In this document: positions 14,564 to 29,209 of the stretch, piece by piece
Numbering within the stretch: position 1 is the first letter of the stretch
Layout: every line of letters starts with the position of its first letter
NCBI GenBank assembly: GCA_021775755.1
Contig: JAJFHE010000054.1
Location: 62,001 to 126,000 of the forward strand
Direction: 5' to 3'
Source: Hyphomicrobiales bacterium
GTDB taxonomy: Bacteria > Pseudomonadota > Alphaproteobacteria > Rhizobiales > JAJFHB01
Length of the DNA stretch: 64,000 nucleotides
The notes under the pieces: generated by a model
What the model was told of the DNA's origin: nothing
What the model saw: only the letters and a program-made list of their open reading frames with translations
Databases searched by the model: none
Made by a program: the position numbers and the translations under genes

Positions 14564-14573
14564 GTGCACAATC

Positions 14574-15005
14574 CTAAGGAGACGGCGCAGCCAATACAAC
14601 CGATGGCGTCCATGCCCCTGCGCGACGCTCAAGGCGCGCAGGGGAACTCTCGCCTTCATAGCTCACCGGTTCGGCCGCCCGGCCCTCAAGCTCGGGAGCT
14701 TCAAGACAATTGACATTGAGCGTTGCAACCGGGCCGCGCGCCGTGTCGCATACCGCACCCAGATAAACCCCGCACCTTCCGCACACGAGAAAATCCCCAG
14801 TCGAAAGCCCGAACCGGTAGCGCTGCAACGCACCCGCCGTGTCGCGAAATGTAACGTGCCCTCGCGGATCGACACTCGTACGCGCATTGTGCTTGCGGCA
14901 AAAGCTGCACTGGCAGGCGCGCAACTCCAGATCCCGCGGCGCAATGGCGGTATCGAACTGAACAGCAATCGCCCCGCAGTGACACGACCCGGCAAGGACG
15001 CTCAT
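14574..15005 (-). CDS. GFA family zinc protein
   Basis: 143 aa. Zinc-binding pattern of the glutathione-dependent formaldehyde-activating/CENP-V fold: SCHCG at 7-11, CQCSFCRKHNA at about 31-41 and CGRCGVYLGAV at about 75-85. Known GFA members bind two zinc ions, and Gfa itself was proposed to speed S-hydroxymethylglutathione formation, though the role of most homologues is unclear. Its start overlaps the stop of the upstream methyltransferase by four bases (ATGA), so the two are translationally coupled. Confidence 0.9.
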   Translation of the reverse strand: MSVLAGSCHCGAIAVQFDTAIAPRDLELRACQCSFCRKHNARTSVDPRGHVTFRDTAGALQRYRFGLSTGDFLVCGRCGVYLGAVCDTARGPVATLNVNCLEAPELEGRAAEPVSYEGESSPARLERRAGAWTPSVVLAAPSP

Positions 15006-15850
15006 GATTTGACGCCGCTGCCGATACGCACATGCGCGGTCATATGGTACTCGCCGTCCTTGAGATAGCGGTTGAACTTGTCGCGCACGGCCCCGGCAAC
15101 CGCCGCACGTTCCTCCGCGCCAAGCTGATCGAGTTTCGGACCCAGCGACATGTCGATTTGCGGATGCCAGAATTCGCGGTCACCCGGCACTTTCGGTGTA
15201 AATCTCAGTTCCTGCTCCTCGACCTGACCGAGACCGCCTGCTTCCAGAATGCCAGACAACGTGCCCGCCTCTCCCATGCGGCACATGGTGCTAAGATCGA
15301 TCAGCGGATCATCGAGCCCCCAGAACTCTTCCGCAACCTCGGCGAACACCGTGAACATCGTCGTGTCGTCGCGCGGGCCCCAGACCATGTAGGCGGCGCG
15401 CCCACCGGGTTTGAGAACCCGCGCGGCCTCACTTGCGGCCTTCACAGGATCGGGAACGAACATGATGCCGAAGCGGCACATCACCCGGTCGAAGCTTGCG
15501 TCCTCTTCAGCAAGGCCGCACATGTCGGCGATTTTGAAACTGACATTCTTCAGCCCCTTCTCCGCAACACGCCGGCGTGCACCTTCGAGCATTTCAGGCA
15601 CCAGATCGCTGGCGACCACCGCACCCGACGCGCCGACCATCTCCGCCACCGTCGTCATCGGCTCGCCGGCACCGGTCGCCAGATCAAGAACCCGCAGACC
15701 CGGCTCGATCTTTGCTGCCTCGATCAACGGCGCGTTGAACCGTGCCGCCATGGCGGCCACCTCATCGGCCCGGCTGTCCCAGTGCCTGCCCCGCCGCGAC
15801 CAGTCCTCCCGGACGTCTTCGGATCTAGGGTTCTCGGTTTTCTCCGGCAT
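15002..15850 (-). CDS. Class I SAM-dependent methyltransferase
   Basis: 282 aa. Rossmann-fold motif I VLDLATGAGEP at about 54-64, motif II acidic turn ASDLVPEMLEGA, a third motif ADMCGL, and RFGIMFVPDP with RVLKPGGRAAYMVWG at about 140-155. It is close to the UbiE/Methyltransf_11 group. The C-terminal 100 residues (EEFWGLDD...DMSLGPKLD) are an extension found in uncharacterised bacterial members. Substrate unknown. First gene of the operon with the GFA protein and the secreted protein. Confidence 0.9.
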   Translation of the reverse strand: MPEKTENPRSEDVREDWSRRGRHWDSRADEVAAMAARFNAPLIEAAKIEPGLRVLDLATGAGEPMTTVAEMVGASGAVVASDLVPEMLEGARRRVAEKGLKNVSFKIADMCGLAEEDASFDRVMCRFGIMFVPDPVKAASEAARVLKPGGRAAYMVWGPRDDTTMFTVFAEVAEEFWGLDDPLIDLSTMCRMGEAGTLSGILEAGGLGQVEEQELRFTPKVPGDREFWHPQIDMSLGPKLDQLGAEERAAVAGAVRDKFNRYLKDGEYHMTAHVRIGSGVKS

Positions 15851-15919
15851 GAATCCTCTTTGATGTTCGTGGTTTTCGTTTTCCTATAGTCTCGCGCACC
15901 GGACTGGAGCACAAGACGC

Positions 15920-16429
15920 ATGAGCGACCAAAACAGCATCGTGATCAGACCCTACGAGGCAGCTGATCTGGAGGACGTAATTGCCTGCGTACGCGCCTTG
16001 CAGGTTTTCGAAAGCACATTTGAACCTCGTATGAAGGATCCGGCGGACATCGGCTCCTGGTTCGTCGAGGAACTGCTCGCACAGTGCGCCGCCAAAGACG
16101 GCGTGATCCTCGTCGCCGCAGATAGCGCAACGGTCATTGGCTACGCCTGCGTTCTGGCGCGGGTGATCTGCGATGATCCGGACGAAATCGCCTACGAATA
16201 TTCGTATCTCTCCGATCTTGCGGTGAACCCGGAATTGCGTGGCCAGGGGATCGGCAGCAGGCTCCTTCAAGCCTGCAAGGCATATTGCGAGGACCACGGC
16301 AGCAACTGCCTGCGGATCAACGTTCTGGCCGGCAACGAGGGCGCGGCGCGCCTCTATCGCAAGTCCGGCTTCAAGGACCGTGTGATCGAACTGGATATGA
16401 TGCTCGACCGGCACTCGGATGGGCCATGA
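15920..16429 (+). CDS. GNAT-family N-acetyltransferase
   Basis: 169 aa. The acetyl-CoA pyrophosphate loop is RGQGIGSRLLQA at about 111-122, preceded by SYLSDLAVNPELR and followed by INVLAGNEGAARLYRKSGF, the classical GNAT motif A/B layout. It could acetylate a small amine or a protein; the acceptor is unknown. Its stop overlaps the start of the enolase-superfamily gene by four bases (ATGA), placing it in one operon with that enzyme and the ureohydrolase. Confidence 0.88.
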   Translation: MSDQNSIVIRPYEAADLEDVIACVRALQVFESTFEPRMKDPADIGSWFVEELLAQCAAKDGVILVAADSATVIGYACVLARVICDDPDEIAYEYSYLSDLAVNPELRGQGIGSRLLQACKAYCEDHGSNCLRINVLAGNEGAARLYRKSGFKDRVIELDMMLDRHSDGP

Positions 16430-17535
16430 AGATCACGCGCATTTCCATTTATCGCACGGAACTGCCCTATGTCGGTGGCGAGTATGGCTGGGGTGCCGGC
16501 AACGTTATTCGAACCGGTTTGACGACTGTTGCGGTCATCGAAACGGGCGCCGGGATCTCCGGCTGCGGCGAATTCTGCCCGTGCGGGGAAAACTACATGG
16601 TCGCCAACTCAGCCGGCACCTCGGCCGTTGCCGGCCTCATTGCGCCCCGGCTTCTTGGCGAGGACCCCCGCGAGATTGGAAAGATTGAGCGGATCATGGA
16701 CACCACGGTCCAGGGGCACGGCTACGCCAAGGCAATGCTCGATGCCGCCTGCTGGGACATTCTCGGCAAGGCGGCCGGATTGCCGGTCCATGTTCTGCTT
16801 GGCGGAAAGTTGACGGACGGTGCCCCGATGTACCGGGTGGTTCCGCAAAAGCCCAAAGCGCAAGCGGCAAAAGAGATGGCCGCCCACCGCGCCGCCGGTT
16901 ACCGGCAGTTTCAGATCAAGGTCGGCAGCGACTGGCGCACCGACATCGAAAACATTCTCTCCGCTGTCTCCCTGCTTGAACCCGGTGAGAACGCCTATGC
17001 CGATGCCAACCAGGGCTGGACCGTCAACGATGCCGTCAAGGTGGTCCGCGCGGTGCGCGACACCGGCATCATGATCGAGCAGCCCTGCGTCACCTACGAA
17101 GAGTGCCTGCACGTGCGCTCCCGTTGCGACCTGCCGATGAAGCTCGACGAATGCGTCACCAGTCTCGCAATGGCGGAACGCATCGTCGCCGACCGGGCGG
17201 CGGAAGTCGTCTGCCTCAAGATTTCAAATCTCGGCGGTCTCAGCAAAGCCCGCCGTGTGCGCGACTACCTCATGGAGCATGGACTGTCGGTCGTTGCCGA
17301 AGACACCTGGGGCGGTGAAATCACCACCGCCGCCGTCGCCCATCTTGCCGCGTCGACCCGGCCTGAACTTCTCTACAACACCACCGACCTGCACAACTAC
17401 AACACACGCCACACCGGCACGCCCGGGCCGGCGACACGCGATGGCCTGCTCTTCGCCCCCGACACGCCGGGGCTCGGCGTCGAACCCGACTTCGAGAGCC
17501 TTGGCGACCCCATCGCCGTCTACGAACCCTCATAA
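16426..17535 (+). CDS. Enolase-superfamily dehydratase/racemase (MR/MLE type)
   Basis: 369 aa. The start is set by the ATGA overlap with the acetyltransferase. Capping domain 1-125, barrel after that. Active-site residues line up with the muconate lactonizing subgroup: Lys165 in QIKVG, metal ligands Asp193 (DANQGW), Glu218 (EQPC) and Asp241 (LDEC), and Lys265 in LKISNLGG as the opposite base. The first lysine of the usual KxK is a glutamine (Q163). The sequence resembles marine enzymes acting on hydroxyprolines and proline betaines (cis-3-hydroxyproline dehydratase group), which is a guess at the substrate. The ureohydrolase 14 bases downstream suggests a shared amino-acid pathway. Confidence 0.88.
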   Translation: MKITRISIYRTELPYVGGEYGWGAGNVIRTGLTTVAVIETGAGISGCGEFCPCGENYMVANSAGTSAVAGLIAPRLLGEDPREIGKIERIMDTTVQGHGYAKAMLDAACWDILGKAAGLPVHVLLGGKLTDGAPMYRVVPQKPKAQAAKEMAAHRAAGYRQFQIKVGSDWRTDIENILSAVSLLEPGENAYADANQGWTVNDAVKVVRAVRDTGIMIEQPCVTYEECLHVRSRCDLPMKLDECVTSLAMAERIVADRAAEVVCLKISNLGGLSKARRVRDYLMEHGLSVVAEDTWGGEITTAAVAHLAASTRPELLYNTTDLHNYNTRHTGTPGPATRDGLLFAPDTPGLGVEPDFESLGDPIAVYEPS

Positions 17536-17549
17536 AAGAAAGCAAACCG

Positions 17550-18515
17550 ATGAGTGACCCGCTGACCGAAGCACCCGGCGCAACACCCCGGACGTTCCTG
17601 GGGTTTCCTTTCGCGCCCGATCTCGACAATCTCGAAGCCGATATTGCCATTCTCGGCGTCCCCTACGGCCTGCCCTATTACCCGGAAGAGCTTGCAAACG
17701 ATCAGTCGCACGCACCCGATGCGATCCGCCGCAATGCCCAGGATGCCGCCTGGGAAGAACCGCGCACCCGCATGCACTATGACTGGGACCTCGGCGGCCC
17801 GCTGCTCGACGGCCGTAACGTGAAGGTGGTCGACTGCGGCAACGTCACCGCCGACATGCGCGATCCGCAGGCGCATTACCGTCGCGCCGAAGAAGCGGCG
17901 CGCAGGATTTTCAACGCCGGCACCACTCTAGTCACGCTCGGTGGCGACCACGGCGTGCCGATCCCGGTTCTGCGCGCCCTGCCCCGCGACGAAACCGTCA
18001 CGCTTGTTCAGATCGACGCTCATATGGATTGGCGCGACGATGTCAACGGCGAGCCCAACGGGTACTCGAGCCCGATCCGCCGCGCTTCGGAGATGGAATG
18101 GATCGGGCCGATCGTGCAGATCGGCCTGCGCGGTGTTGGTTCCGCGCGCACGGGTGAAATCGAAGCCGCACAAGCCTACGGCGCCGAGCTGATATCGGCC
18201 TACGAAATGCACGAGATTGGCATCGAAGCCGTGCTCGACCGAATTCCCGGCAACGGCCCCTACTACCTGACCGTCGACGCGGACGGCATGGACCCTTCCA
18301 TCATGCCCGCCGTCACCGCTCCAACGCCCGGCGGCCTCACCTGGGTGCAGTTGCGCGCTCTGGTGCACGGCCTTGTGCGCAAGGGCCGGGTTCTCGGCAT
18401 GGACTTCGTCGAAGTCGCCCCGTCCCGCGACCATGGCAACATCACCCTCGTTCACGCAGAGCGTCTCTTGTGCAACTTCATCGGTGCCTGCGTCAGGGCG
18501 GGTTACTACGACTGA
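17550..18515 (+). CDS. Agmatinase/arginase-family ureohydrolase
   Basis: 321 aa. All manganese ligands of the ureohydrolase fold are present: His134 in GGDHG, Asp156-x-His158-x-Asp160 in DAHMD, and Asp243/Asp245/Asp248 in DADGMDP. It should split a guanidino compound to urea plus an amine. Agmatine is only one option; guanidinobutyrate, guanidinopropionate and formiminoglutamate enzymes share the motifs. Third gene of the GNAT/enolase operon. A second, divergent paralogue is at 47882 beside a polyamine transporter. Confidence 0.9.
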   Translation: MSDPLTEAPGATPRTFLGFPFAPDLDNLEADIAILGVPYGLPYYPEELANDQSHAPDAIRRNAQDAAWEEPRTRMHYDWDLGGPLLDGRNVKVVDCGNVTADMRDPQAHYRRAEEAARRIFNAGTTLVTLGGDHGVPIPVLRALPRDETVTLVQIDAHMDWRDDVNGEPNGYSSPIRRASEMEWIGPIVQIGLRGVGSARTGEIEAAQAYGAELISAYEMHEIGIEAVLDRIPGNGPYYLTVDADGMDPSIMPAVTAPTPGGLTWVQLRALVHGLVRKGRVLGMDFVEVAPSRDHGNITLVHAERLLCNFIGACVRAGYYD

Positions 18516-18730
18516 GCCGGCGGGTGGTATCCGGCGGTTGAGCATGTGGAACGTCCGGCAAACGACTGGTGCCGCCGAGTACGCAAGTCGGCGAGCAGGA
18601 AATCGCCGGGCGCTCCGGTCCCCATCCGCGCGCGATGTCTGGTTTAGACTAACAATTCACCGTCAGATTAACTGACCGGACAAGGGCGTTCGTGGTCCTG
18701 GCCGGTCATTCGCTGTGCCGCAGCGGATGA

Positions 18731-18766
18731 CAAAATGGGCGGAGAGCGGTCGTTCGCTGCAATTTG
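18731..18766 (+). repeat. Dispersed repeat, copy A
   Basis: Core GGGCGGAGAGCGGTCGTTCG with CTGC after it. It is closely matched by copy B 89 bases downstream. The tail (GGTC-TTCGCTGC type) recurs near 20233-20249. Confidence 0.65.
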
Positions 18767-18819
18767 AACGCACGTCCGAAAAATCCCAGAAGCCGACGTT
18801 AGGAAACTGTCATGAAAGG

Positions 18820-18856
18820 CAAAGATGGGCGGGAAGCGGTCCTTCGCTGCATATTG
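18820..18856 (+). repeat. Dispersed repeat, copy B
   Basis: Core GGGCGGGAAGCGGTCCTTCG followed by CTGC. It differs from copy A at only a few positions over about 36 bases. Confidence 0.65.
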
Positions 18857-18974
18857 CATCAACGTCGACTGTGCGGACAAAGCGGACCTCGGTTCAATGT
18901 CCGGTCTAGGAAAAAAATGCAGAGTGAACCTTCGTTAGCCGTCCTCAAGTTGACGCGCCGGCAGAAACCCGGTG

Positions 18975-19307
18975 TCAGTTTGCTTTGATGTTCAGCGAAC
19001 GCTTCAGCCAGTCAGAATACTCAGCAAGAGCCTTCTCATCACGCGAACAGTAGGTCCATTTCTGCTGTCGCTTTGCGGAAATAAATCCAGCGCGCCTGAG
19101 CAGATCAATATGACGGCTCATAGTGGGCTGACTAACTCCAAAATGCTCCGCGATAAGCTGAACGCACACCCCGGTCTCTACCGGGTCTGCTGATTCCTGA
19201 TGGCTGAAATTGCGGCTTGGGTCGTCCAAAACACGCAGAATCTCGATCCGTGTTTCGCTGGCAAGCACCTTGACTTGATCTTCTCGATTTGACATGCCCA
19301 TAGTCAT
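18975..19307 (-). CDS. ArsR-family transcriptional regulator
   Basis: 110 aa. Winged HTH: LASETRIEILRVL at about 16-28, recognition helix region CVQLIAEHFGVSQPTMSRHIDLLRRAGFI at 48-76, and wing AKRQQKWTYCSRD. A single CV motif and no paired metal cysteines, so it may sense an organic ligand or act by redox and not bind arsenic. It is divergent from the hydrolase at 19354. A near-perfect 16-bp inverted repeat (19297-19334) covers its first codons. In-frame ATGs at 19307, 19301 and 19295 are all possible starts; the last lies just outside the palindrome. Confidence 0.88.
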   Translation of the reverse strand: MTMGMSNREDQVKVLASETRIEILRVLDDPSRNFSHQESADPVETGVCVQLIAEHFGVSQPTMSRHIDLLRRAGFISAKRQQKWTYCSRDEKALAEYSDWLKRSLNIKAN

Positions 19308-19334
19308 ATAGCTATTTCGCTAAATGTCTATGGG
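19297..19334. promoter_or_regulatory. 16-bp inverted repeat: candidate ArsR operator
   Basis: Left arm CCCATAGTCATATAGC and right arm GCTAAATGTCTATGGG (14 of 16 paired) with a 6-base spacer. It is placed between the divergent regulator and hydrolase, where binding would block both promoters. Confidence 0.7.
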
Positions 19335-19353
19335 AAAGCTAAGAGGATCTACT

Positions 19354-20163
19354 ATGCTCAAAGTTGATGAACGGTTTTCATTTGAAGGCCAATCCATTGC
19401 GTGGGGATCGCTGGGTGAAGGCGATCCAATAATTCTCATCCATGGATTTCCCTGGTCTTCACAGGCATGGCGATCAATTGCGCCTTGGTTGGCGCGAACG
19501 CACAAGGTTTATTTCTTCGACATGCTTGGCTGTGGCCAGTCTGAAAAGAAGGAGGGGCAGAATGTGACCGAGACTGTGCAGAGCAATCTGCTGGAAGCTC
19601 TGATCAATCATTGGGGCATCGAGCGCCCGCAAGTCGTTGGTCATGATTTCGGTGGGTTGGCCGCATTGCGGGGCCATTTTGTGAATGGCATCGACTACGG
19701 CAAGTTGCACCTAATCAACGCCGTTGCCGTGCTGCCGTCCGGATCGCCATTCTATGCTCACGTCGCTAATTACGAACCCGCGTTTGCCGGATTACCGGAT
19801 TACGCGCACGAGGCGTTGTTTCGAGCTTATATTCAGGCTGCGGCACACTATCCTTTGCGAGAAGAAGCGATCCAGTTGTATTTTGAGCCGTGGTCCAATG
19901 AAGTCGGAAAGGCAGCGTTCTACCGGCAAATTGCCCAAGCTGATTTGTCTAATATTGAGGAGGCTCAAAAGCTGTATGCCGAGACCAACTTCGACACGCA
20001 TCTGATATGGGGAGCGAGAGATACCTTTATCCCTATTGCCCAAGGGGAGGAGCTACGGGGATTGGTCAAAGCCAAGAGCTTCACACCGATTGCGAATGCT
20101 TCACATATCGGTCACGAGGATGCACCTGAAACGCTACTGGGTGCACTTCTCCAGAATATTTGA
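19354..20163 (+). CDS. Alpha/beta hydrolase with Asp nucleophile (epoxide hydrolase/dehalogenase type)
   Basis: 269 aa from ATG 19354, which follows AAGAGGA by seven bases; an in-frame ATG at 19324 lies inside the operator-like palindrome. HGFPWSSQAW is the oxyanion region. The nucleophile elbow is GHDFGG (Asp near residue 101), as in epoxide hydrolases and haloalkane or haloacetate dehalogenases, not a serine. The acid is probably in WGARDTFIP and the base in NASHIGHEDAPE. Codon use is clearly less GC-biased in third positions than in the flanking kilobases, a sign of acquisition. Probably controlled by the divergent ArsR protein. Confidence 0.85.
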   Translation: MLKVDERFSFEGQSIAWGSLGEGDPIILIHGFPWSSQAWRSIAPWLARTHKVYFFDMLGCGQSEKKEGQNVTETVQSNLLEALINHWGIERPQVVGHDFGGLAALRGHFVNGIDYGKLHLINAVAVLPSGSPFYAHVANYEPAFAGLPDYAHEALFRAYIQAAAHYPLREEAIQLYFEPWSNEVGKAAFYRQIAQADLSNIEEAQKLYAETNFDTHLIWGARDTFIPIAQGEELRGLVKAKSFTPIANASHIGHEDAPETLLGALLQNI

Positions 20164-20310
20164 AGATTCGCTCTGCCGCAGCCGCGTTAGCTGTCGTTCG
20201 GGGCAGTGCAGAAAACGGTCAGTATGGGCTCAATGCGGGCTTTCGCTGCGCCAGCGATGACCGGCAGCAAAGGGCCGAAAGCTGAACTAACGCTAAAGGC
20301 AGTTTTTGGT

Positions 20311-20530
20311 CGATTTTGTTGATAAAGTCCTTTTTTGGAGCTGGTTCAAAAAACTCCGGCCCACAGGCGAGCTTTTCAAAAAATAAGCTGAGGGGACAGC
20401 CATCAACTCAATATCTTTCCGTGTGACGCACTGAAGTGTGCTCAGGGGGATTATGGATTCGATCCTTGATGAAATCGGGTTCTGCCAAGAAAATCGGCCC
20501 TCCAAATTTCCGACTTTATCAACACAATCG
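20311..20530. mobile_element. MITE-like element or IS remnant with inverted ends
   Basis: Ends CGATTTTGTTGATAAAGTC (20311-20329) and GACTTTATCAACACAATCG (20512-20530) are inverted copies with 18 of 19 positions paired. Similarity fades outwards and inwards. About 180 bases lie between, with no transposase. No clear target duplication is visible. Confidence 0.6.
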
Positions 20531-20637
20531 GCACAAAATCTCCGTTCCGATCGACGCTCGTGCACTTCCGTTTTGGGTGCCGAGGCGGGCGTCGGGAGCA
20601 CGATTGGTCCGGAATGTCCGAACTTGGAGGCGGAGCA

Positions 20638-20677
20638 GAAGTCCCGCCGCCGGACTCAGAACGGTAGACAATGACCC
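20638..20677 (+). repeat. 40-bp direct repeat, copy 1 (downstream of PhyH gene)
   Basis: Begins GAAGTCCCGCCGCC and ends GGTAGACAATGACCC. It matches 21936-21975 at 37 of 40 positions. The two copies bracket the PhyH gene. Confidence 0.75.
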
Positions 20678-20760
20678 GAAGCGGAAACCCGGGGCCTATT
20701 TACCAACCCATCCGTAGCCGGCAGCATTTCGACCGCCAATAGAATGCGTTAGCCGCCGGC

Positions 20761-21705
20761 CTAAGTGGTATAGAGCTCTCCTGTAACATCCGAACTCCCG
20801 GCGCTAATTTGCGCCTCCGGATCGCCCGTATGCCCGTAGCTTGACCATGTCGCAAAGCCCAATCTTTCGACTCGCTCCGATGAGTTGCGGGCGAACACAT
20901 CTGGACGCAATCCCCGGGAGTAGTTCTCCAATGCCCGGAATTGCGGGCCGCAGGCAACCGTTGTGACGCCAAAGCGGGACTGATTGCTCGTGTTTGGCGC
21001 AGCCCCATGCCAAAGCCTTGCGTCAAACACAATTGCCGTGCCAGCGGGTCCGGCCGCCGGGACTGTCGGCACTCTGTGCGGGACGGAGGCATCGGGCTCC
21101 TGGCCACTGAGATGACTCATGGGCACAATTCGGGTTGCCCCTGTCTCTTCAGTAAAATCTGTAATCATCCACATCGCATTCACGGCCGCAGCCGGGGCAA
21201 TCGGCCGGCCTGCAGGTGCAGGGTTGAGGCACGTGCCCGTCCCGCGCGTCATTGCTGACAGTTTAGGATTGCCCTCACCCGGCAAAACCGGCTGCGGCAT
21301 CCACCATTGATCGGTATGAAGCGGCATCGTACCGGCGCCAGGGTGCTGGATTTGGGCATCGACGCATGAAATCTGGTAGTCCGGCCCGATGAGATGTTCA
21401 ACGAGTGCGCAGTAAATTTCCTGCTCGATCAGCTCAAAGAAGATGTCGCCTTTGTTCAGCAGCATACCGACCCACTGATTGACCGGATCGGTATTGGCCG
21501 GATTCTTCATGCTGTGCATCTTGCGCTCGACAGACGCTTGCTCGACGAGACGATCCTGAACTGCCCGCAAACTGTTGGCCTCAAGCGCACGTTCGACGAT
21601 GCAGTAGCCGAAACGCTCCAGGTCAGCACTTAGGGTCTCTAACTGTTGAGTGGGACAGGGCAAGTCTTCATCTTGCCAGCGAAGAGGATAGGTTTGTCGC
21701 TTCAT
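20761..21705 (-). CDS. Phytanoyl-CoA dioxygenase (PhyH) family oxygenase
   Basis: 314 aa. Non-heme Fe(II)/2-oxoglutarate oxygenase: the iron triad is His130-x-Asp132 (PLHTDQW) and His233 (LWHGAAPN), with the 2-oxoglutarate arginine Arg244 in SRFGV. The DSBH core runs from about 115 to 250, with a C-terminal extension. It hydroxylates an unknown small molecule. It stands alone in the repeat-rich stretch and is flanked by direct copies of a 40-bp repeat, so it may have moved as a unit. It is only distantly similar to the second PhyH protein at 57134. Confidence 0.88.
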   Translation of the reverse strand: MKRQTYPLRWQDEDLPCPTQQLETLSADLERFGYCIVERALEANSLRAVQDRLVEQASVERKMHSMKNPANTDPVNQWVGMLLNKGDIFFELIEQEIYCALVEHLIGPDYQISCVDAQIQHPGAGTMPLHTDQWWMPQPVLPGEGNPKLSAMTRGTGTCLNPAPAGRPIAPAAAVNAMWMITDFTEETGATRIVPMSHLSGQEPDASVPHRVPTVPAAGPAGTAIVFDARLWHGAAPNTSNQSRFGVTTVACGPQFRALENYSRGLRPDVFARNSSERVERLGFATWSSYGHTGDPEAQISAGSSDVTGELYTT

Positions 21706-22175
21706 TCCGGCTTCCTCTCAGACCATCGACGATACGGCTGGCGGAGCGCAAACATCGGCCAATTCACGGCGCGCGCAGCTTTGCCAACCAGAATGGTGTC
21801 GAGTGTATATCTCTGCCGTCTGTGGAACCATGGCGACAGCCTGTCGCACAGGTTGCCGAATGTCGGAATTTGGCGGTGGGCTCAACAGGTGGACGCAACA
21901 CTTTAATTTTTGAACGAAGTTGGAGTGTTGGACATGAAGTCCCGCCGCCAGCCTCAGTACGGTAGACAATGACCCTTATGCGGCATCTGGGATGACCGAA
22001 GTACGGCGTTGCGCTACAACCGTCATGCCCGATTGGGCGCTTCAATATCCGAACGTGGGGAAGAGCGGACCGGTCAGCAGGTCACCAAGCTCCTCAAGAG
22101 TACCAAGGCCGGGCCTTCGGAAACAGGCTGCAACCACAGCCACAGCATGAAACAGCCAGCTAAGCGCGGTGTCAG
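21706..22175. other. Gene-free stretch with repeats
   Basis: No gene is supported. It includes an imperfect hairpin near 21893-21932 (CAACACTT... / ...AGTGTTG), the second copy of the 40-bp repeat and general low coding character. Short frames on both strands are not convincing. Confidence 0.5.
21936..21975 (+). repeat. 40-bp direct repeat, copy 2 (upstream of PhyH gene)
   Basis: Begins GAAGTCCCGCCGCC and ends GGTAGACAATGACCC, with three mismatches to copy 1. Same orientation. Confidence 0.75.
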
Positions 22176-22463
22176 CTAGCCCGTCAAATGGACTACGTTA
22201 TCGTAAGCCTCGGCGCTGGGTGCCGCCGTGAGAAATTCCGCCATGCTTCCCCAGATCGCCTGGACTTGTTCGCTCGCCGCTTCAGCCGCTTCTTGACTCT
22301 CATAGATCGCCATTGTGACGCCGTGTCCGTCAGAGCGCCAGGCGCTGTAGGCGTCTACGACCCCGGCTATGGACTTGATCTGTCCTTTGATATCTTCAAT
22401 TCTTGCTTCCGTTTCGTCCAGTCGAGCTGGATCGCCTTGGTATGTCGTAACTCGTGCATACAT
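22176..22463 (-). CDS. Small ABM-like (dimeric alpha/beta barrel) protein
   Basis: 95 aa. The ATG at 22463 is chosen because GGAGG stands nine bases before it; the upstream in-frame ATG at 22478 lacks this. The pattern MYARVTTYQGDPARLDE..., a central AYSAWRSDGHGVTMAIYESQEAAEAA and a C-terminal helix match the ferredoxin-like fold of antibiotic-biosynthesis-monooxygenase-type proteins. Members range from quinol monooxygenases to proteins with no known activity; no catalytic residue can be assigned here. Probably an orphan gene within the accessory stretch. Confidence 0.7.
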   Translation of the reverse strand: MYARVTTYQGDPARLDETEARIEDIKGQIKSIAGVVDAYSAWRSDGHGVTMAIYESQEAAEAASEQVQAIWGSMAEFLTAAPSAEAYDNVVHLTG

Positions 22464-23120
22464 GAGCGTCGCCTCCATTGTCTTGCTCGTTTACCGTTAC
22501 ATGCGCTGATCCAAATCACAAATCATTCATGAACCTGCAGCGATGGTTCCGGGAACTGTCAAATGGGTCAAATTTGGTCGTCGGGCTGATGGCAGGCATC
22601 GGGGGCTAGAGGTGGCGAGCAAGTGGCAATTCGCACGACCGAGAGGGGCACTTCTTCCATTCGGCGAGATTGGCTCAACGGCGATTAATGGCATTGAATT
22701 ACCGTCTGCGACGGTCTCCGATGACGGCAACTATCGAATAGATTCCAGACCTAGACCGCTTCACGTTCATATAGAATCGTTTGACCGGTGTTTCGCGTCT
22801 GCTGGCAAGGCACAGGTCGTGCAGTGGACTTCCCGTCCACAAGGGGGCTGTAACGCTGTCCAGGAGGCGCAAAACCCCGGCCTTCGGTGGGCCAAATCGG
22901 CTCACCGACTTCGTAGCGTCGCTTGCCCGATACACCGCATCGCGCGTCGCGCCGCGCCTTGCCGGATGAACCGATTTGACCCATCAAACGTTTCCATATG
23001 AACGTGAAACGGTCTAGGAGGCCCACTCTTCCACTTTCGACCACCTTTTCACCGTCGAACTGACCAACCCGAGAAGGGGAGTTTTGCCGCTTTACCGGCA
23101 ACCCGATAACTTCTCGGGAC
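22464..23120. other. Gene-free stretch holding a second MITE-like element
   Basis: No gene is supported. The 152-codon frame at 22543-23001 and opposing frames run through the inverted-repeat element and have no protein character. Besides the element at 22750-23018 there is a 9-bp stem CCCGAGAAG/CTTCTCGGG with a 33-base loop at 23068-23118, just past the end of the DUF3592-like gene. Confidence 0.5.
22750..23018. mobile_element. MITE-like element with ~39-bp terminal inverted repeats
   Basis: The left end starts CCTAGACCGCTTCACGTTCA and the right end, read on the other strand, starts CCTAGACCGTTTCACGTTCA. Pairing continues for 39 bases with 34 matches. Total length 269 bases, no coding content. 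The outer CTAGACCG/CGGTCTAG ends are perfect. No obvious target-site duplication. Confidence 0.7.
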
Positions 23121-23570
23121 CTAGCGATCAGCCCCTCTCATCAACCGCCGCAGGCCGGTGCCCGCCGTCAGAACGAGGATTGCACCGCAAGCGAGGAGGA
23201 CCAGCGGCAACAACCAGTTGCGAAATCCCTCGGCGATCAGCGCTTCGTCGGGCTTACCTTGAAGGTAGGTTACGACAACGCGTTCGCCTTCCGCATAGCT
23301 TGCCGGGTTGGCGCCGGTTCGATGTCGAAAGGTAATGGTTCGTCCATCGGGCATCTCGAACGTGACGATTGGAAACAGCGACGCCTGGCCACTGGCACTC
23401 GTGGTGGAACCAGGTTCCAGAGCGGTCACTGTTCCGGTTGCATTTTTGCCGTGGACCAGCAGGTTAATCTGAAGAACGGCAAAATAAAGTCCGCCCGATA
23501 TGAGCCCGATGCCAACCAGGACCGCAACCGGCAGCGCCAATAACAGGGATCGTCTCTGTTGTGGAGTCAT
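23121..23570 (-). CDS. DUF3592-like membrane protein
   Basis: 149 aa. Two membrane spans, at about residues 8-36 and 118-140, flank a ~75-residue extracytoplasmic beta domain. That domain has the pattern GKNATGTVTALEPG...PIVTFEMPDGRTITFRHRTG...YAEGERVVVTYLQGKPDEALI, characteristic of DUF3592. Function unknown; such proteins are widespread and often sit alone. The final residues (LRRLMRGADR) are basic and cytoplasmic. Confidence 0.8.
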   Translation of the reverse strand: MTPQQRRSLLLALPVAVLVGIGLISGGLYFAVLQINLLVHGKNATGTVTALEPGSTTSASGQASLFPIVTFEMPDGRTITFRHRTGANPASYAEGERVVVTYLQGKPDEALIAEGFRNWLLPLVLLACGAILVLTAGTGLRRLMRGADR

Positions 23571-23847
23571 CTGGAGTGACTACTTCGCACACGTTTTTCA
23601 ACCACGAATGATCGTGGCCTGTTGTTGCCTGAAATTCACATCAACATGGCGTGAGGATGAGACCGTCGCCTAATGGGATGTCCCGATCGCGCTGCCGAAC
23701 ACCCGGGTCCGCGAACAGTGAAAATCCAGACATTCTCGTCGCAATCCGCACGCAATGTCTGCTTTCGGTTGCCGGTTCGCCATCTGGTTGGCAGGTGGGG
23801 CAAGGGCACTTGTGTCCCCAAGCCGGATCGTGGGACGTGACCCTAAA

Positions 23848-24255
23848 TCAGGTCCTTGCCAGAGTGCTGACCATAATCACACTGCCTTGATGATACAAAA
23901 GTCCTGCCAGTAGAAGCGCAAGCATGTAAGGCAGGGCACGGCGGGTCGTTAAGCCGACGATGGCGCATGCAAGGACGATGATGCAGAACCAGCCGAGGGT
24001 CCAAAACAGCCATATCCTGACCGGCAGAACAAACAACACGGTCGCCCAGAGCGGAATGCAAACGGCGACGGCATTTCGAAGCCAGGAGTGTGCTCGCTGT
24101 CGATGAAGTCGAACCGCAACGGCAGCCAGGACAAGCAGGGATAGGCTGAGGAACAGAATACTCATAAAGGGAAACGGCAACCAGAATACCCAGTCGCCGT
24201 AAGGCAAGGGCAACAATTCGTACGCGGTGTTCAAACTCAAGGTTCTTCCAATCAA
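23848..24255 (-). CDS. Hypothetical four-span membrane protein
   Basis: 135 aa with four hydrophobic segments, at about 25-48, 62-82, 83-102 and 108-122, and arginine-rich loops (LHRQRAHSWLR, TTRRA). The hydrophobic periodicity is convincing, and the competing frame 23843-24358 on the same strand is low-complexity and cysteine-rich, so this frame was chosen. I recognise no family. The upstream 270 bases contain another GCAATGTCTGCTTTCGG repeat word (near 23750). The start codon is uncertain. Confidence 0.5.
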   Translation of the reverse strand: MIGRTLSLNTAYELLPLPYGDWVFWLPFPFMSILFLSLSLLVLAAVAVRLHRQRAHSWLRNAVAVCIPLWATVLFVLPVRIWLFWTLGWFCIIVLACAIVGLTTRRALPYMLALLLAGLLYHQGSVIMVSTLART

Positions 24256-24483
24256 TGCCCATTGCGATCATGATGACACCATTCACGGCGTCCTGATCGA
24301 GCCGAAAGATCGGCGTGCAACGGAACCGGGTCAAGCATATCCTTCTTTCTAAATCCAACCGATGTCTCCTGCTGGCACCTTTCAGAGGTTGGCAGTCTGT
24401 GCCGGGTACGTCCGAACTCGATTGCAGTCCGCGCTCGCAAAGCAGGGTGAATTGATGAGTACATGGTCCGGCGCATTGACATC

Positions 24484-25233
24484 TCAGGGCGTCACGAGAT
24501 CCAGCAGCATGGCTTTGATCGCGGCTTGAGCATTGGTACGCGCATTCAGTTTCGCTCGGACATTGCCCAGTTGCTTTTCAACGGTCTTGGGATGTGTCCC
24601 TATACGAGCGGCGATCTGTTTGGTGCGTAGTCCACGCATAATCCAAAGCAGGCATTCGCGTTCGCGCACCGACAGCTGGCGTTTTCTGCCGACAAGCGCC
24701 GAGCCCTGTACGTTAGCGTCGAACACCTGCGCCAGTTCTCGCACGCGGTCGTACATGTGACGCAGATGCCGTCTGAAACCTTCGCGCGAGAACTCCGGCG
24801 ACCCGACAAGCGAAATCCCGCCCCGGCACAGCGGATGACGGCCGCGCAGCGGCAGGGCAATGCCGTGTGACATCCCCGATTCCAGTCCCATGAGATGGGT
24901 TTGCGCCTGCCTTGCCGGCAACCTTCCGCGCCGCGCCAGCTCATAGACACGGGCGAACGTCAAAGGCGATACGCGGGTCACACAGTGCTCGATGATGTAG
25001 TCGTGATTGGCGCACCCGCCCTCGGCATAGGCATCTTCCCAGGCGTCGTCGAAGCGTCCGACAAACAGGAACTCGCCGGCTGGCCGGCTGTCGGGTGTCG
25101 GCGCAACCGCGAGGCCGTATTTGCCCGCCTCGAAACCGCACCGGTGCAATTCTCCAAGCATCGCCGCCCACGCCTCATCCAGTGTGCCGGCCTGGCGGAT
25201 CGTATCGGCTAGCTGCAGCGTCTCGCGATACAT
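24484..25233 (-). CDS. LuxR-type transcriptional regulator (autoinducer-domain-like)
   Basis: 249 aa from the ATG at 25233 (an in-frame ATG at 25263 would add ten residues). The N-terminal ~165 residues resemble the autoinducer-binding domain layout (FEAGKYGLAV...DDAWEDAYAEGGCANHDYIIEHCVTRVSPLTFA...SHGIALPLRG). The LuxR HTH follows at about 185-245 (LSVRERECLLWIMRGLRTKQIAARIGTHPKTVEKQLGNVRAKL). No luxI-type synthase is in the window, so it is a solo regulator. The divergent secreted protein at 25388 is the likely target. A G6/C6 palindrome lies between them. Confidence 0.88.
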   Translation of the reverse strand: MYRETLQLADTIRQAGTLDEAWAAMLGELHRCGFEAGKYGLAVAPTPDSRPAGEFLFVGRFDDAWEDAYAEGGCANHDYIIEHCVTRVSPLTFARVYELARRGRLPARQAQTHLMGLESGMSHGIALPLRGRHPLCRGGISLVGSPEFSREGFRRHLRHMYDRVRELAQVFDANVQGSALVGRKRQLSVRERECLLWIMRGLRTKQIAARIGTHPKTVEKQLGNVRAKLNARTNAQAAIKAMLLDLVTP

Positions 25234-25291
25234 GGTTCGAACCCTGTGGCTCCGCACACCCATCCTACACTAGGACCTCTTCAAGCAGCTA

Positions 25292-25308
25292 TGGGGGGAT
25301 TCCCCCCA
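25292..25308. promoter_or_regulatory. 17-bp palindrome between LuxR gene and secreted protein
   Basis: TGGGGGGA-T-TCCCCCCA, symmetric around one base. It lies in the divergent promoter region in the size range of a lux box, but its sequence differs from known lux boxes. Confidence 0.5.
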
Positions 25309-25387
25309 ATTGCGTCCCCCGGCGATGGCACCCAACTACACGGGAGTGGACGCACCACAGCTCCGCCATCAACGGAGGGACAAACCG

Positions 25388-25948
25388 ATGCACACACCCA
25401 CGCTTCGCAGACCGCGGGCGCTCCGCACCCTGCCCGCGGGCCTTATTGCAATCGTCATCTGCCTTGCATCGCATCACCCGGCGGCTGCGGGAGAAAGCGG
25501 TGGCGGGAGTGCCGCCGGTGAAGGCAATGTCGTGCATTACGACAAACGGACCTACACGGCGCAGGATGCCAAGGAAGCTGCGGACGATATCGACCTGCTC
25601 GGCTACCGTGTCACCTTCGAGGGCGTGCACTCTTCCTACGCGTCCTACATCCTGCAGATTGCCCGTTACCGCCCGGACATCGCGGCAAACATGCTGAACA
25701 GCGGCCAATTCACGAATGTAGACATCTACGCAGGCCCCGCCTATCACATGAAGCGGCTCAGGGAGTTGATCGCCTATCTCGAACGGCTGGGCAAACGCCT
25801 CGACAAGGAGGCCGAAACGGCGAGTTCTTTGGGTCACGGGGAGAACGGCCGCAACACCCAGTTTGCCCGCATCATCGTATCCGGCATATCGGGCGAATCC
25901 GCCGACGCTCTCGGCGACATGGAATCCTATTCCGAAATCCCGCCGTGA
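25388..25948 (+). CDS. Secreted protein of unknown function
   Basis: 186 aa from ATG 25388, preceded by GGAGGGA at eight bases. A signal peptide spans about residues 1-35 (RTLPAGLIAIVICLASHHPAAAGES, cleavage after AAA). The mature part has a helical region (DAKEAADDIDLLGYRV, MKRLRELIAYLERLGKRLDKEAE) and no cysteines. I recognise no family. It is divergent from a solo LuxR regulator and may be its target. Its last 22 bases overlap the 3' end of the convergent nuclease gene. Confidence 0.7.
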   Translation: MHTPTLRRPRALRTLPAGLIAIVICLASHHPAAAGESGGGSAAGEGNVVHYDKRTYTAQDAKEAADDIDLLGYRVTFEGVHSSYASYILQIARYRPDIAANMLNSGQFTNVDIYAGPAYHMKRLRELIAYLERLGKRLDKEAETASSLGHGENGRNTQFARIIVSGISGESADALGDMESYSEIPP

Positions 25949-26622
25949 TGGGGAACCCACCCCGCAGCTTCCGCCTCGTCCGCGGAACAGAACCAGCGCT
26001 CGCCCTTGTCCGTTTCAATACGCACGCGCGCAAACGCGGGCTGGTTCGGCAGGTAGTACACGCGCCCGCCGCCTTCGGAAATATCGCCCTTCACCGCACA
26101 ACCACGCGCATCGGTAATCCACTCAACCACGCGCTTGCCCGCACGCCACTCCCAGGGCGGCACATAGATCGTGCCCCAAAGTCCCGCGACATGCGTGCGG
26201 CCATCGTGATGATTGAGAATGTAGTCCTGCGGACCGTCGCGGCGCACCAGCGCGAACCCGTGCGCGGCCAGTTCCGCGGAGAGATCCAGCCCCATCGTCT
26301 GACACCGCGCGTGAACGGTGCGGTCCGCATCGGTGCGCTGCGCCACGCACCGCACGTCGCGCGACCCGATAAAGTCGCGCAGGTGCGAAATCGCCGCGCG
26401 CCCGCAGGCCCACACGCCGGTACTGCGATAGCACAGCTGATCGGGCTCCAGCGCATCGATGCCCCAAAGCCTGATCCGCTGGCCGGAAACTTCGATCAGA
26501 TCGGCCTCTATGACCGCAGCCCTGCCGCTGATGCCCTGAACCTGAGCTTGAGCCTCAACCGCTCCCACACTCAGGCACCAGATGACAGCGGTCGCGAGCA
26601 CCTGGAGCGGCTGCAACTTCAT
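25927..26622 (-). CDS. Secreted thermonuclease-like (SNase) protein
   Basis: 231 aa. Signal peptide about 1-25 (VIWCLSVGAVEAQAQ). The staphylococcal-nuclease-like OB fold at about 30-140 carries RLWGIDALEPDQ (positions of the catalytic Asp/Glu region) and RTDADRTVHARC. The classical glutamate after the aspartate is kept as E in ALEPD. A C-terminal ~50-residue domain (FARVRIETDKGERWFCSADEAEAAGW) is shared by alphaproteobacterial SNase-like proteins. Nuclease activity is inferred, not certain. It starts four bases after a 51-aa membrane protein gene and overlaps the opposite secreted-protein gene by 22 bases. Confidence 0.85.
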   Translation of the reverse strand: MKLQPLQVLATAVIWCLSVGAVEAQAQVQGISGRAAVIEADLIEVSGQRIRLWGIDALEPDQLCYRSTGVWACGRAAISHLRDFIGSRDVRCVAQRTDADRTVHARCQTMGLDLSAELAAHGFALVRRDGPQDYILNHHDGRTHVAGLWGTIYVPPWEWRAGKRVVEWITDARGCAVKGDISEGGGRVYYLPNQPAFARVRIETDKGERWFCSADEAEAAGWVPHHGGISE

Positions 26623-26625
26623 CCG

Positions 26626-26781
26626 CTACTGCCAGGGCTTGTAGATCATTGCCCAGCCGACCATCAGCAAGGAAAAGAAAACCGATATCGTGGCGACGCC
26701 GCTGCCGGCCACTTCGCCGACCAGATAGGCGACAATGGCCGCCGCAACGGTAACGATGCCCCACTTTGCAAAGATGTTCAT
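26626..26781 (-). CDS. 51-aa membrane protein, upstream partner of the nuclease
   Basis: Not a shadow. The frame reads MNIFAKWGIVTVAAAIVAYL then a second hydrophobic run ISVFFSLLMVGWAMIY and ends KPWQ. The ATG at 26781 follows GGAGAAAGC, an excellent ribosome site. Two predicted membrane helices, with a short GEVAGSG turn between. It stops three bases before the nuclease start, so the pair is almost certainly co-translated. I know no family; it could anchor or escort the secreted nuclease, but that is speculation. Confidence 0.75.
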   Translation of the reverse strand: MNIFAKWGIVTVAAAIVAYLVGEVAGSGVATISVFFSLLMVGWAMIYKPWQ

Positions 26782-26936
26782 GCTTTCTCCTGGATGCTGC
26801 CCTGAGAAACGCTGTCCTCAGCAGCGCCGCCTGACCGGCAAGCGCTTGTTGTCTGGATTGCCCATGATTGTAGGACGCCACGCGACCGGGTTAAACAGGC
26901 TTGTTCTCGCCCTGCCGGTATGTCACTGCTCAGGCC

Positions 26937-27866
26937 ATGCCGCTCAGCGAACGAACCCCCATTGATTTGGCGCACCGCGAGGCGTGGCGTTCGGCGCGTT
27001 TTGCCATGGAGACATCGGGTGCGCGCACCTCGCCCAGCGGCCGCCGCACGTCGCTTGGCACCTGGGTCCACTACGCGGAATACGTCTTCAGACTTCCGGT
27101 TCTGAAAGGCTGGTCGCGGCACAATGCGCTCAAACTCAGACTGCATAAACTGGATTTCAGTTTCGCCAATCTGCCACAGGCATTCGATGGCTACACCATC
27201 TTGCAGATATCCGATCCGCATCTCGACAACCTGCCGGACCTTGTCGCCCCGGCGCGCGCCCTCATCGATGGCCTGACGCCGAACCTCATTGCCATGACAG
27301 GCGACGTGCGCGGCGCGATCAAGGGGCCGCACGCTCCCGCGGTCGCATTGCTTGACGAAGTGATGCAGGCACTGGGCCCCTGCAAAGACCGCCTCGCCAT
27401 TCTCGGCAACCACGACCCGGGCGCCATCGTCGAAGACCTCGAGGGGCTCGGCTTCCGTGTACTGCTCAATGAAACCGTGGAGATCGAGCACGAAGGCGCG
27501 AGGCTCCGTGTCACCGGCCTTGACGATGTGCACAGCTTCTATACAGATGCCGCCCGCGCCGCGCTTGGCGCGGATCCGGATCGCTTTTCGATTGCCCTCA
27601 TCCACTCCGCCGAACTCGCCGATGCCGCGTCGGAGGCGGGCTACGATCTGCATCTTTCCGGCCACACCCATGGCGGCCAGATCTGTCTGCCGGGCGGGCG
27701 CCACATCGTCTCCAACCTCACACGCTGCAAGGCATTTGCAAAAGGCCCGTGGCACTGCGGCGCCATGCAGGGCTACACCAGCAACGGCCTCGGCGTCTCC
27801 GGCATCGTCGCGCGCTTCAACTGCCCAGGCGAAATGGTGCTGATTACTCTGCGGCGGGCCGGCTGA
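26937..27866 (+). CDS. Calcineurin-like metallophosphoesterase
   Basis: 309 aa. All five metal-binding blocks are present: DPHLD, TGDV, GNHD, a histidine in IHSAE, and GHTHGGQ. The N-terminal ~85 residues form a basic extension before the catalytic domain. This resembles the YaeI/UDP-diacylglucosamine-hydrolase-like cytosolic or membrane-associated phosphoesterases. Substrate unknown. ATG 26937 has a weak ribosome site, and an in-frame ATG at 27006 remains possible. It is divergent from the nuclease/small membrane protein operon. Confidence 0.88.
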   Translation: MPLSERTPIDLAHREAWRSARFAMETSGARTSPSGRRTSLGTWVHYAEYVFRLPVLKGWSRHNALKLRLHKLDFSFANLPQAFDGYTILQISDPHLDNLPDLVAPARALIDGLTPNLIAMTGDVRGAIKGPHAPAVALLDEVMQALGPCKDRLAILGNHDPGAIVEDLEGLGFRVLLNETVEIEHEGARLRVTGLDDVHSFYTDAARAALGADPDRFSIALIHSAELADAASEAGYDLHLSGHTHGGQICLPGGRHIVSNLTRCKAFAKGPWHCGAMQGYTSNGLGVSGIVARFNCPGEMVLITLRRAG

Positions 27867-27877
27867 TCAAACGCCTG

Positions 27878-28108
27878 TCACCCACCCCATCCCGGCTGGC
27901 GGGCGTCGGGCCGCGACCATAGCGGATAGCCCTTTTCACGGTTGCGAGCGCCGCACCGTGGGCAGCCCATCCGGTCTCCGGCAAAAGGCGTAGGGGTATC
28001 CGGCGCAAGCGCAATTGCCGCCGGATCGACATAACCGTGATAGTGGCAGGCAAAGCAGCCAACTTCGAGCCGCCTGCCGGCACGCATCAGATCTTCAAGC
28101 GTCACCAT
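27878..28108 (-). CDS. Small zinc-ribbon-like protein
   Basis: 76 aa. Two cysteine pairs, CFACHYHGYVD (residues 18-21, with nearby histidines) and CPRCGARN (about 49-52), separated by ~28 residues. This is a compact zinc-ribbon spacing. The N-terminal MVTLEDLMRAGRRLEVGC is typical of a short conserved alphaproteobacterial protein I have seen but cannot name. The plus strand opposite holds no credible gene. It ends 12 bases from the convergent phosphoesterase. Confidence 0.65.
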   Translation of the reverse strand: MVTLEDLMRAGRRLEVGCFACHYHGYVDPAAIALAPDTPTPFAGDRMGCPRCGARNREKGYPLWSRPDARQPGWGG

Positions 28109-28207
28109 TGCCGAGCCTCAGGCTCGGCCCCACCCCCTCCGGGCATGCAACACATTCGGCTGCTTCTGGTTACGCGATCAAGGGATTGCCGGTTGCAGGT
28201 GGTCGCT

Positions 28208-28993
28208 TCAGGCGCTGAATGCGAGTGACACGGAGCCGAGACCGTCGAGCGAAAAGTCGAACCTGTCGCCTGCTTGCGCAAACCGGGTCGGCACCATGCT
28301 GCCGGTCAGCACGATATCGCCCGCACGCAGCCCGCTACCGCTTGCTGTCAGGTGCCGCGCGAGCCACAAAAGCGGCTCGAACGGATGTCCGAGAACGTCG
28401 CGGCCATGACCTTCGTCGACGACGGCGCCGTTCAGTTCCGCAACCCCGCGGATCGCGGCAAGATCGGGCCATTTGGTAGAAAACGCACCGAGCACCGCCC
28501 CGGCGTTCCACGAATTGTCGGCCAGGATGGAGAGGATATCGACATCACCGTACTCCGCGTCGCGGTCGTCAATAATCTCGAACGCCGGACACACCGCCTC
28601 GACGGCATCCGCCAGTTCATCAACGGTTGCCGGCAGATTGCCAGCCGTCACATCGCGACCCATGCGAACGCCGATCTCAAACTCGACACCGGCGCGGCCG
28701 TAGTTGCCAACCGGCACTTCGGCACCGGACTGCATGACACGGTCGCGCAACATAACGCCGCCGATCGGTTCGCCGATTCCAACCCATTCCTGGATCCGCT
28801 TCGATGTGGCGCCAACCTTGTAGCCGGCTTTGTCGCCGTGACGGGTTCGCAGCAATTCGACATATCGTGCCTGAACGGCGTACGCATCGTCCACGTTTGC
28901 AATGCCCAAGGAAGACGAAAAGTTCTCGAACCGCCGCCCTTCATCGTGGTCGGAAAGCAGACGCTCCGCCGCCTGTTGGTATGTATCGCCCAT
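28208..28993 (-). CDS. 2-keto-4-pentenoate hydratase/FAH-family enzyme
   Basis: 261 aa from ATG 28993; longer frames upstream add unrelated residues. The pattern YKVGATS..., VGIGEPIGGVML, AGVEFEIGVRMGRD (metal-binding acids), CPAFEIIDDRD and a C-terminal GDIVLTGSMVPTRFAQAGD matches the MhpD/FAH superfamily. That family hydrates or decarboxylates 2-oxo acids with Mg2+ in meta-cleavage and related pathways. It stands alone on the minus strand, and no ring-cleavage gene is close. Cytosolic. Confidence 0.87.
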   Translation of the reverse strand: MGDTYQQAAERLLSDHDEGRRFENFSSSLGIANVDDAYAVQARYVELLRTRHGDKAGYKVGATSKRIQEWVGIGEPIGGVMLRDRVMQSGAEVPVGNYGRAGVEFEIGVRMGRDVTAGNLPATVDELADAVEAVCPAFEIIDDRDAEYGDVDILSILADNSWNAGAVLGAFSTKWPDLAAIRGVAELNGAVVDEGHGRDVLGHPFEPLLWLARHLTASGSGLRAGDIVLTGSMVPTRFAQAGDRFDFSLDGLGSVSLAFSA

Positions 28994-29209
28994 TCTGAAA
29001 AACCTGCCTTGATTGTGCCGCTGTCCGCAGGACTGTGCCCAACGCGTCTGTTGACTACCATCACTCTTTCCGCATGGCGAGCGCCATCCCCTGACCGGCC
29101 CAACCGCACCCCGGTTCGCGGTCGCCCGCAACGCGATGCGGACACGTTGCGCCTATGTTGAATCTTCCCGACATACCTTAAGATCGGTCACGGAACACCC
29201 TTTGGAAAA

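Follow-up and report, generated by a model that had tools for sequence, protein, structure and literature searches.

The locus centres on a single gene of the PhyH family, which lies between two short direct repeats in the window, that is, the whole 64,000-nucleotide stretch of DNA that was analysed. As an earlier note on this DNA had claimed, a 40-bp sequence at 20638-20677 recurs at 21936-21975 in the same direction with 37 of 40 positions identical, a match for which about 2e-9 occurrences are expected by chance under a simple model that considers all position pairs in 64 kb. The description of the enclosed interval as a gene and little else is likewise accurate: between the two copies stand the PhyH gene, on the minus strand at 20761-21705, and some 313 bp of spacer, and PhyH is the only long open reading frame there that was judged to be a gene, the domain scan having covered PhyH alone. 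The neighbours are an alpha/beta hydrolase gene on the left (19324-20163) and a small reading frame on the right (22176-22478). The features of the locus are collected in Table 1.

Table 1. Features at and around the PhyH gene, in window coordinates; G114 denotes a genome from another family.
Feature	Position	Strand	Description
MITE-like element A	20308-20532		225 bp; inverted ends, arms 20303-20329 and 20512-20538
Repeat B, left copy (B1)	20532-20686	+	155 bp, intergenic; longest form observed
40-bp copy 1	20638-20677	+	Belongs to B1
15-mer AATGACCCGAAGCGG	20670-20684	+	Exact in the G114 left flank of the gene; point of switch from resident-like to donor-like sequence
Stretch of about 68 bp	20685-20752		Missing from G114; no match elsewhere in the genome reported
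Tract common to G114	20753-21874	-	92.7% identity; PhyH gene plus 169 bp upstream (upstream part 144/169)
PhyH-family (PF05721) 2-oxoglutarate/Fe(II) dioxygenase-like gene	20761-21705	-	945 bp, 314 aa
B-like motif CCGAATGTCGGAATTTGGC	21856-21874	+	Putative IS30 target and putative front of the right B copy
IS30-family left end	21875-21949	+	Inverted repeat and first transposase codons (ATG 21934), truncated
40-bp copy 2	21936-21975	+	Final portion of another B copy (B2), fused to IS30 at GAAGT

The product of the gene is a putative 2-oxoglutarate/Fe(II) oxygenase of the dioxygenase-like type. It scores 94.5 bits against the PF05721 profile (cutoff 22, E 1.5e-26), which places it in the family, and the HTD and distal H residues, which we take to be catalytic, are visible by eye in the protein. 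Among solved chains, those of fungal SptF and PrhA are the best matches, at low similarity. Comparison of the window gene with its G114 counterpart gives a dN of 0.025 and a dS of 0.22, values that fit purifying selection. Relatives of the protein, judged from the best 80 of 153 stretches (L076-L155), come from Poribacteria, Chloroflexi, Acidimicrobiales and Proteobacteria MAGs among others, a wide spread for one gene.

The repeats in the window are copies of a small dispersed repeat of the same genome, here called B. When the 40-mer was searched with the three differing positions left degenerate, the 5.47-Mb genome contained five sites at no more than three mismatches, both window copies counted, and the reversed control gave none. 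Three further good copies of B were located, at C50:42565-42718 (89%), at C14:13492-13646 (87%) and, as a partial copy close to a contig end, at C71:143-233 (89%); a weaker 82-bp piece on C19 matches at 74%. With neighbours named by eye from their translations, the C50 copy lies between methyltransferase-like and oxidoreductase-like reading frames and the C14 copy between a membrane-protein-like and a transporter-like one; an 88-aa reading frame that crosses B at C14 is probably spurious. None of these three copies adjoins a PhyH gene, and none of the four PhyH-like places of the genome (C50:82764, C76, C27 and C33) lies beside another B copy; B is thus dispersed and not tied to PhyH, and the 40-mer is not peculiar to this gene. 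According to the earlier note, recurrence of the repeat at many unrelated intergenic sites without gene gain would refute its reading, and the three other gene-free sites go part of the way towards that.

Beyond its own genome B is scarcely seen: one of 149 genomes gave a match, to a 24-mer, with at most five candidates scored per genome, and a plasmid collection gave none. No Rfam family reached its gathering score across 19000-23500, and the predicted RNA structure of B, with a z of -1.6, is not striking. The last 26 nt of B2 agree with B1, the C50 copy and the C14 copy at 23, 22 and 21 positions, respectively. A local duplication was considered and set aside, as neither of B1 and B2 is clearly the nearest neighbour of the other.

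Other small elements lie close by. Element A has an 86% copy in G001:C58, a genome of the same family, and its two ends match, at 77% and 83%, sites on C45 of its own genome (L179, C45:223500-229000) that are separated by about 2.5 kb and bracket an IS1595-family transposase and two reading frames without a Pfam match. At 22750-23018 there is a MITE-like element of 269 bp with 40-nt inverted ends; 68 pieces of its own genome match it, 13 of them, itself included, near full length at 85% identity or better, and many copies occur in G001 and G003.

The PhyH gene looks to have been acquired horizontally across families. The tract at 20753-21874 is identical to G114:C378 at 1039 of 1121 positions. 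Other gene matches of at least 300 bp between these two genomes reach 67-72%, with some shorter pieces at 74-84%. In the protein tree, the window protein joins first that of G114 (100/98) and then that of G039 (99/96), both of family f37, and it stands apart from that of G001, a member of its own family. Both marks of horizontal acquisition, an identity far above that of other genes and a discordant tree, are therefore found, and it is the 92.7% match to a distant genome, set against 67-72% for longer matches of other genes, together with the tree, that carries this reading. Transfer would have run into the genome of the window, and a third, unsampled donor is possible.

The G114 site has a counterpart without the gene in the congener G039, where a gap of about 170 bp separates the sequences that match one flank and the other; the gap holds a palindromic repeat unrelated to B. 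This repeat is a long one, CCGTCATCCCGGAATTT...AAATTCCGGGATGACGG, at L165 (G039:C131, about 4816-4988). Other parts of the G114 contig match a single G039 contig in order at 72-77%. The estimated contamination of G114 and of the window genome is about 4-5% each; given this collinear G039 contig and the 149-kb length of the contig that carries the window gene, contamination of either genome is an unlikely source of the match. Two vectors were also considered and rejected: for a plasmid, B has no plasmid match and the PhyH relatives on plasmids (25 records) are all less than 60% identical; for a virus, no viral contig matched the peptide patterns.

At the left junction, the window changes partner within B1. 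From 20532 to 20669 it agrees with the B copies of its own genome at 122 of 138 positions, as against 43 of 62 aligned positions with G114; to the right of AATGACCCGAAGCGG it is G114-like, apart from the 68-bp indel. A switch of partner inside a word shared by both sides fits the trace that recombination in a repeat would be expected to leave. A search of ten genomes for exact copies of the 15-mer found one in G114, two in the window genome (the second on C31) and one in G093. The similarity of the G114 left flank to B was reached by none of 1000 shuffles when the 15-mer was included and by 52 of 1000 without it; the B-likeness of this flank comes mostly from the 15-mer and is weak apart from it.

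On the right side, the front of B is missing, and the left end of an IS30-family element stands in its place from 21875 onward. Both an IS30-type inverted repeat and a transposase start are present at 21875-21949, and the stretch is 93% identical to G001:C18:4624-4698. At the matching place on plasmid NZ_CP014328, the ATG at 21934 lines up with the start of a gene annotated as an IS30-family transposase, and a complete relative contains the Pfam domains HTH_38 and rve. Neither a complete transposase nor the right end of the element was found here, similarity stopping by 21949. The IS30 piece spans 60-75 bp; as the letters fit B exactly from 21936, the last base of IS30 may fall anywhere from 21935 to 21940. 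While 21936-21949 equals B exactly, all six IS30 copies compared agree with this stretch at 10-12 of 14 positions (the closest intact copies at 11-12), and the pentamer GAAGT is common to five of the six. Since the window reads as B from 21936 and GAAGT is shared by IS30 and B, the junction most likely lies at GAAGT, with IS30 to the left and B to the right.

At the outer edge of the IS30 end, its inverted repeat begins at most one base from the end of the G114 match (about 21874). When the right side is joined without the IS30 piece, it aligns to B with a score of 84, which none of 2000 shuffles attained (maximum 41), a score driven largely by the end part that was already known to match B. 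The 60-bp stretch immediately before the IS30 end (21815-21874) matches B with a score reached by 9 of 2000 shuffles, and its motif AATGTCGGAATTTGGC resembles GGAATGTCCGAACTTGG of B. G114 carries a stretch corresponding to this right-hand motif without IS30 at that point; the likeness of its right flank to B is weak, 110 of 2000 shuffles reaching the score (15% in another comparison).

A similar motif precedes IS30 left ends elsewhere. At 19 IS30 loci, the window excluded, AATGTC lies 15-18 nt upstream of the left end in nine (L059, L065, L068, L069, L207, L210, L213, L215 and L216), against 0.03 expected from shuffles, and with one mismatch allowed the number rises to 12, against 0.5 expected. 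These counts are to be read with the make-up of the sample: the query that retrieved some of the loci included the upstream sequence of the window and may favour motif-bearing loci, L207 and L216 share a contig, L208 and L209 as well as L211 and L212 each share a genome, and L215 matches just about 39 nt of the IS30 end. The pattern suggests that IS30 left ends in this order prefer a dispersed intergenic motif as their target.

No empty site was found for the window locus, whether by searching the interval in 150 and 397 genomes, with two candidates scored per genome, or the flanking genes in five. G039 does have the regulator-hydrolase pair known from the left flank, and the 8 kb inspected there include neither PhyH nor B; nothing of the right flank of the window is present, so that this is not a proven empty site. 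The 40-bp bracket is absent from eight other PhyH loci, for which 700 bp were inspected on each side (149 bp on one side in G039). Among these eight, a clearly B-like flank occurs in G114 only, on one side; one PhyH locus (L081) has a 14-nt direct repeat. A comparison of neighbourhoods at 15 loci (reading frames of at least 90 aa, blastp at 1e-8, the G002 fragment left out) found no neighbour besides PhyH shared among the window (14001-29000), G114, G039, G040, G001, G007 and G093, the loci of G039 and G001 being shortened by contig ends. The same comparison did detect shared neighbours among L093, L094 and L112. Three weaker matches, each between one of these seven and a more distant locus, were seen for an arginase-type reading frame of the window and L094 (35%), a G039 reading frame and L093 (37%), and a G040 reading frame and L080 (33%). 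A literature search found no paper with a title on the window locus or the repeat, and nothing relevant for the G114 accession.

The earlier note had left open whether the repeats mark a mobile gene unit or the scar of a recombination event, and these two proposals fare differently. A dedicated mobile unit, a gene cassette or compound element that ends in the 40-bp repeats and moves as one gene, would account for direct repeats that enclose little besides the gene and for the seven order-level loci at which no common neighbour gene was found. Yet the sequence shared with G114 (20753-21874 and the 15-mer at 20670-20684) does not stop at the repeats, the bracket is absent at the eight other PhyH loci, and copies of the repeat are present without the gene. 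Nor was a recombinase gene recognised inside, where only PhyH was domain-scanned, and neither the Rfam search nor inspection by eye for an integron attC core gave a match; an integron-type cassette was rejected on these grounds. The idea of a mobile unit bounded by the 40-bp repeats is thus largely refuted, and we regard it as very unlikely; nor do the repeats resemble the termini of a jumping gene. Carriage of the gene by a flanking pair of IS30 copies, with a single end surviving, is no more attractive. It would explain why the tract shared with G114 is directly followed by an IS30 left end, yet the sole IS30 end seen beside the gene is that on the right, no IS30 stands at the corresponding point next to the G114 gene, and a later insertion suffices, as the abutting motif is a usual IS30 target. 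This, too, we consider highly improbable.

The proposal of a scar is plausible, being in keeping with an acquired gene whose left junction is chimeric inside the repeat, and its most serious competitor is coincidence. The gene could have entered by illegitimate recombination into a repeat-rich region, with the B copies uninvolved and the right one brought near by an IS30 deletion, an account that we hold to be a real possibility, at somewhat under even odds. B, element A, the IS30 end and the 269-bp MITE do crowd into 20300-23020, the other PhyH loci lack the bracket, and B1 and B2 are not especially alike. Against this, when five copies were placed at random, two of them came within 1.3 kb of each other in 0.5% of trials, and did so in the same direction in 0.25%, in a control that ignores intergenic location, the clustering of repeats and a deletion bringing a copy near. 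The 15-mer of the left junction also counts against coincidence, as it recurs exactly on the corresponding side of the G114 gene and nowhere else in that genome.

The reading we favour, with a probability of about 0.45, is that the B pair flanks an acquired PhyH gene which entered by recombination at a resident B, followed by insertion of IS30 and a deletion. Most likely, incoming DNA with PhyH and B-like sequence would have recombined with the resident copy; a circular molecule and a single crossover would leave B in direct orientation on both sides. Later, the right-hand B-like motif would have received an IS30-family element, at about 21874/21875, and a deletion that joined the transposase start of this element to B at GAAGT would have removed most of the element and left the 40-bp remnant. 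Several findings count against entry at B: the 68 bp that follow the 15-mer on the gene side lack an explanation, AATGACCCGAAGCGG is not exclusive (also on C31 of the window genome and in G093), and B1 and B2 do not stand out as each other's closest relatives. It is because of the weak G114 flanks, the lack of a bracket elsewhere, these 68 bp and the missing empty site that entry at the repeat is put no higher relative to coincidence.

The observation that drew attention to this locus is therefore a good one, and its explanation is mostly ordinary: a tempting picture of a mobile cassette can arise from short dispersed repeats. What the locus offers is a worked case of a cross-family single-gene transfer, with junction sequence that points to a dispersed repeat. 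One might go further and suppose that dispersed AATGTCCG/AATGACCC repeats in these alphaproteobacteria serve both as a landing pad for single-gene transfers and as a preferred IS30 target, with lone catabolic genes wandering without a recombinase of their own; this generalisation is speculative and, in our judgement, unlikely. Were the case of this locus to prove general, gene exchange would have a route through intergenic repeats that needs no dedicated machinery.

Incoming DNA can recombine homologously at dispersed intergenic repeats, and the locus resembles such events in the direct repeats around an acquired gene and in the switch of partner inside the repeat. It differs in the very short homology (15-40 bp) and in that no empty site with a single repeat was found. 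With IS30-family insertion sequences, the piece on the right shares the inverted repeat, the transposase start and the preference for target motifs; unlike them, it retains at most 75 bp and cannot move alone. PMC9333248 describes nearly palindromic hot spots and the element's own inverted repeats as targets of IS30, and an arrangement like the latter is seen at L067 (G080:C141), where an IS30 copy apparently lies right behind a second sequence resembling the IS30 inverted repeat, CAATGGCTCGACGCAAC. Insertion sequences that enter dispersed repetitive extragenic palindromes are likewise known (PMC1525189). The motif here, AATGTC 15-18 nt before the IS30 end, differs from that setting and may not be a described palindrome of this kind; the likeness lies in an insertion sequence situated inside a dispersed intergenic repeat.
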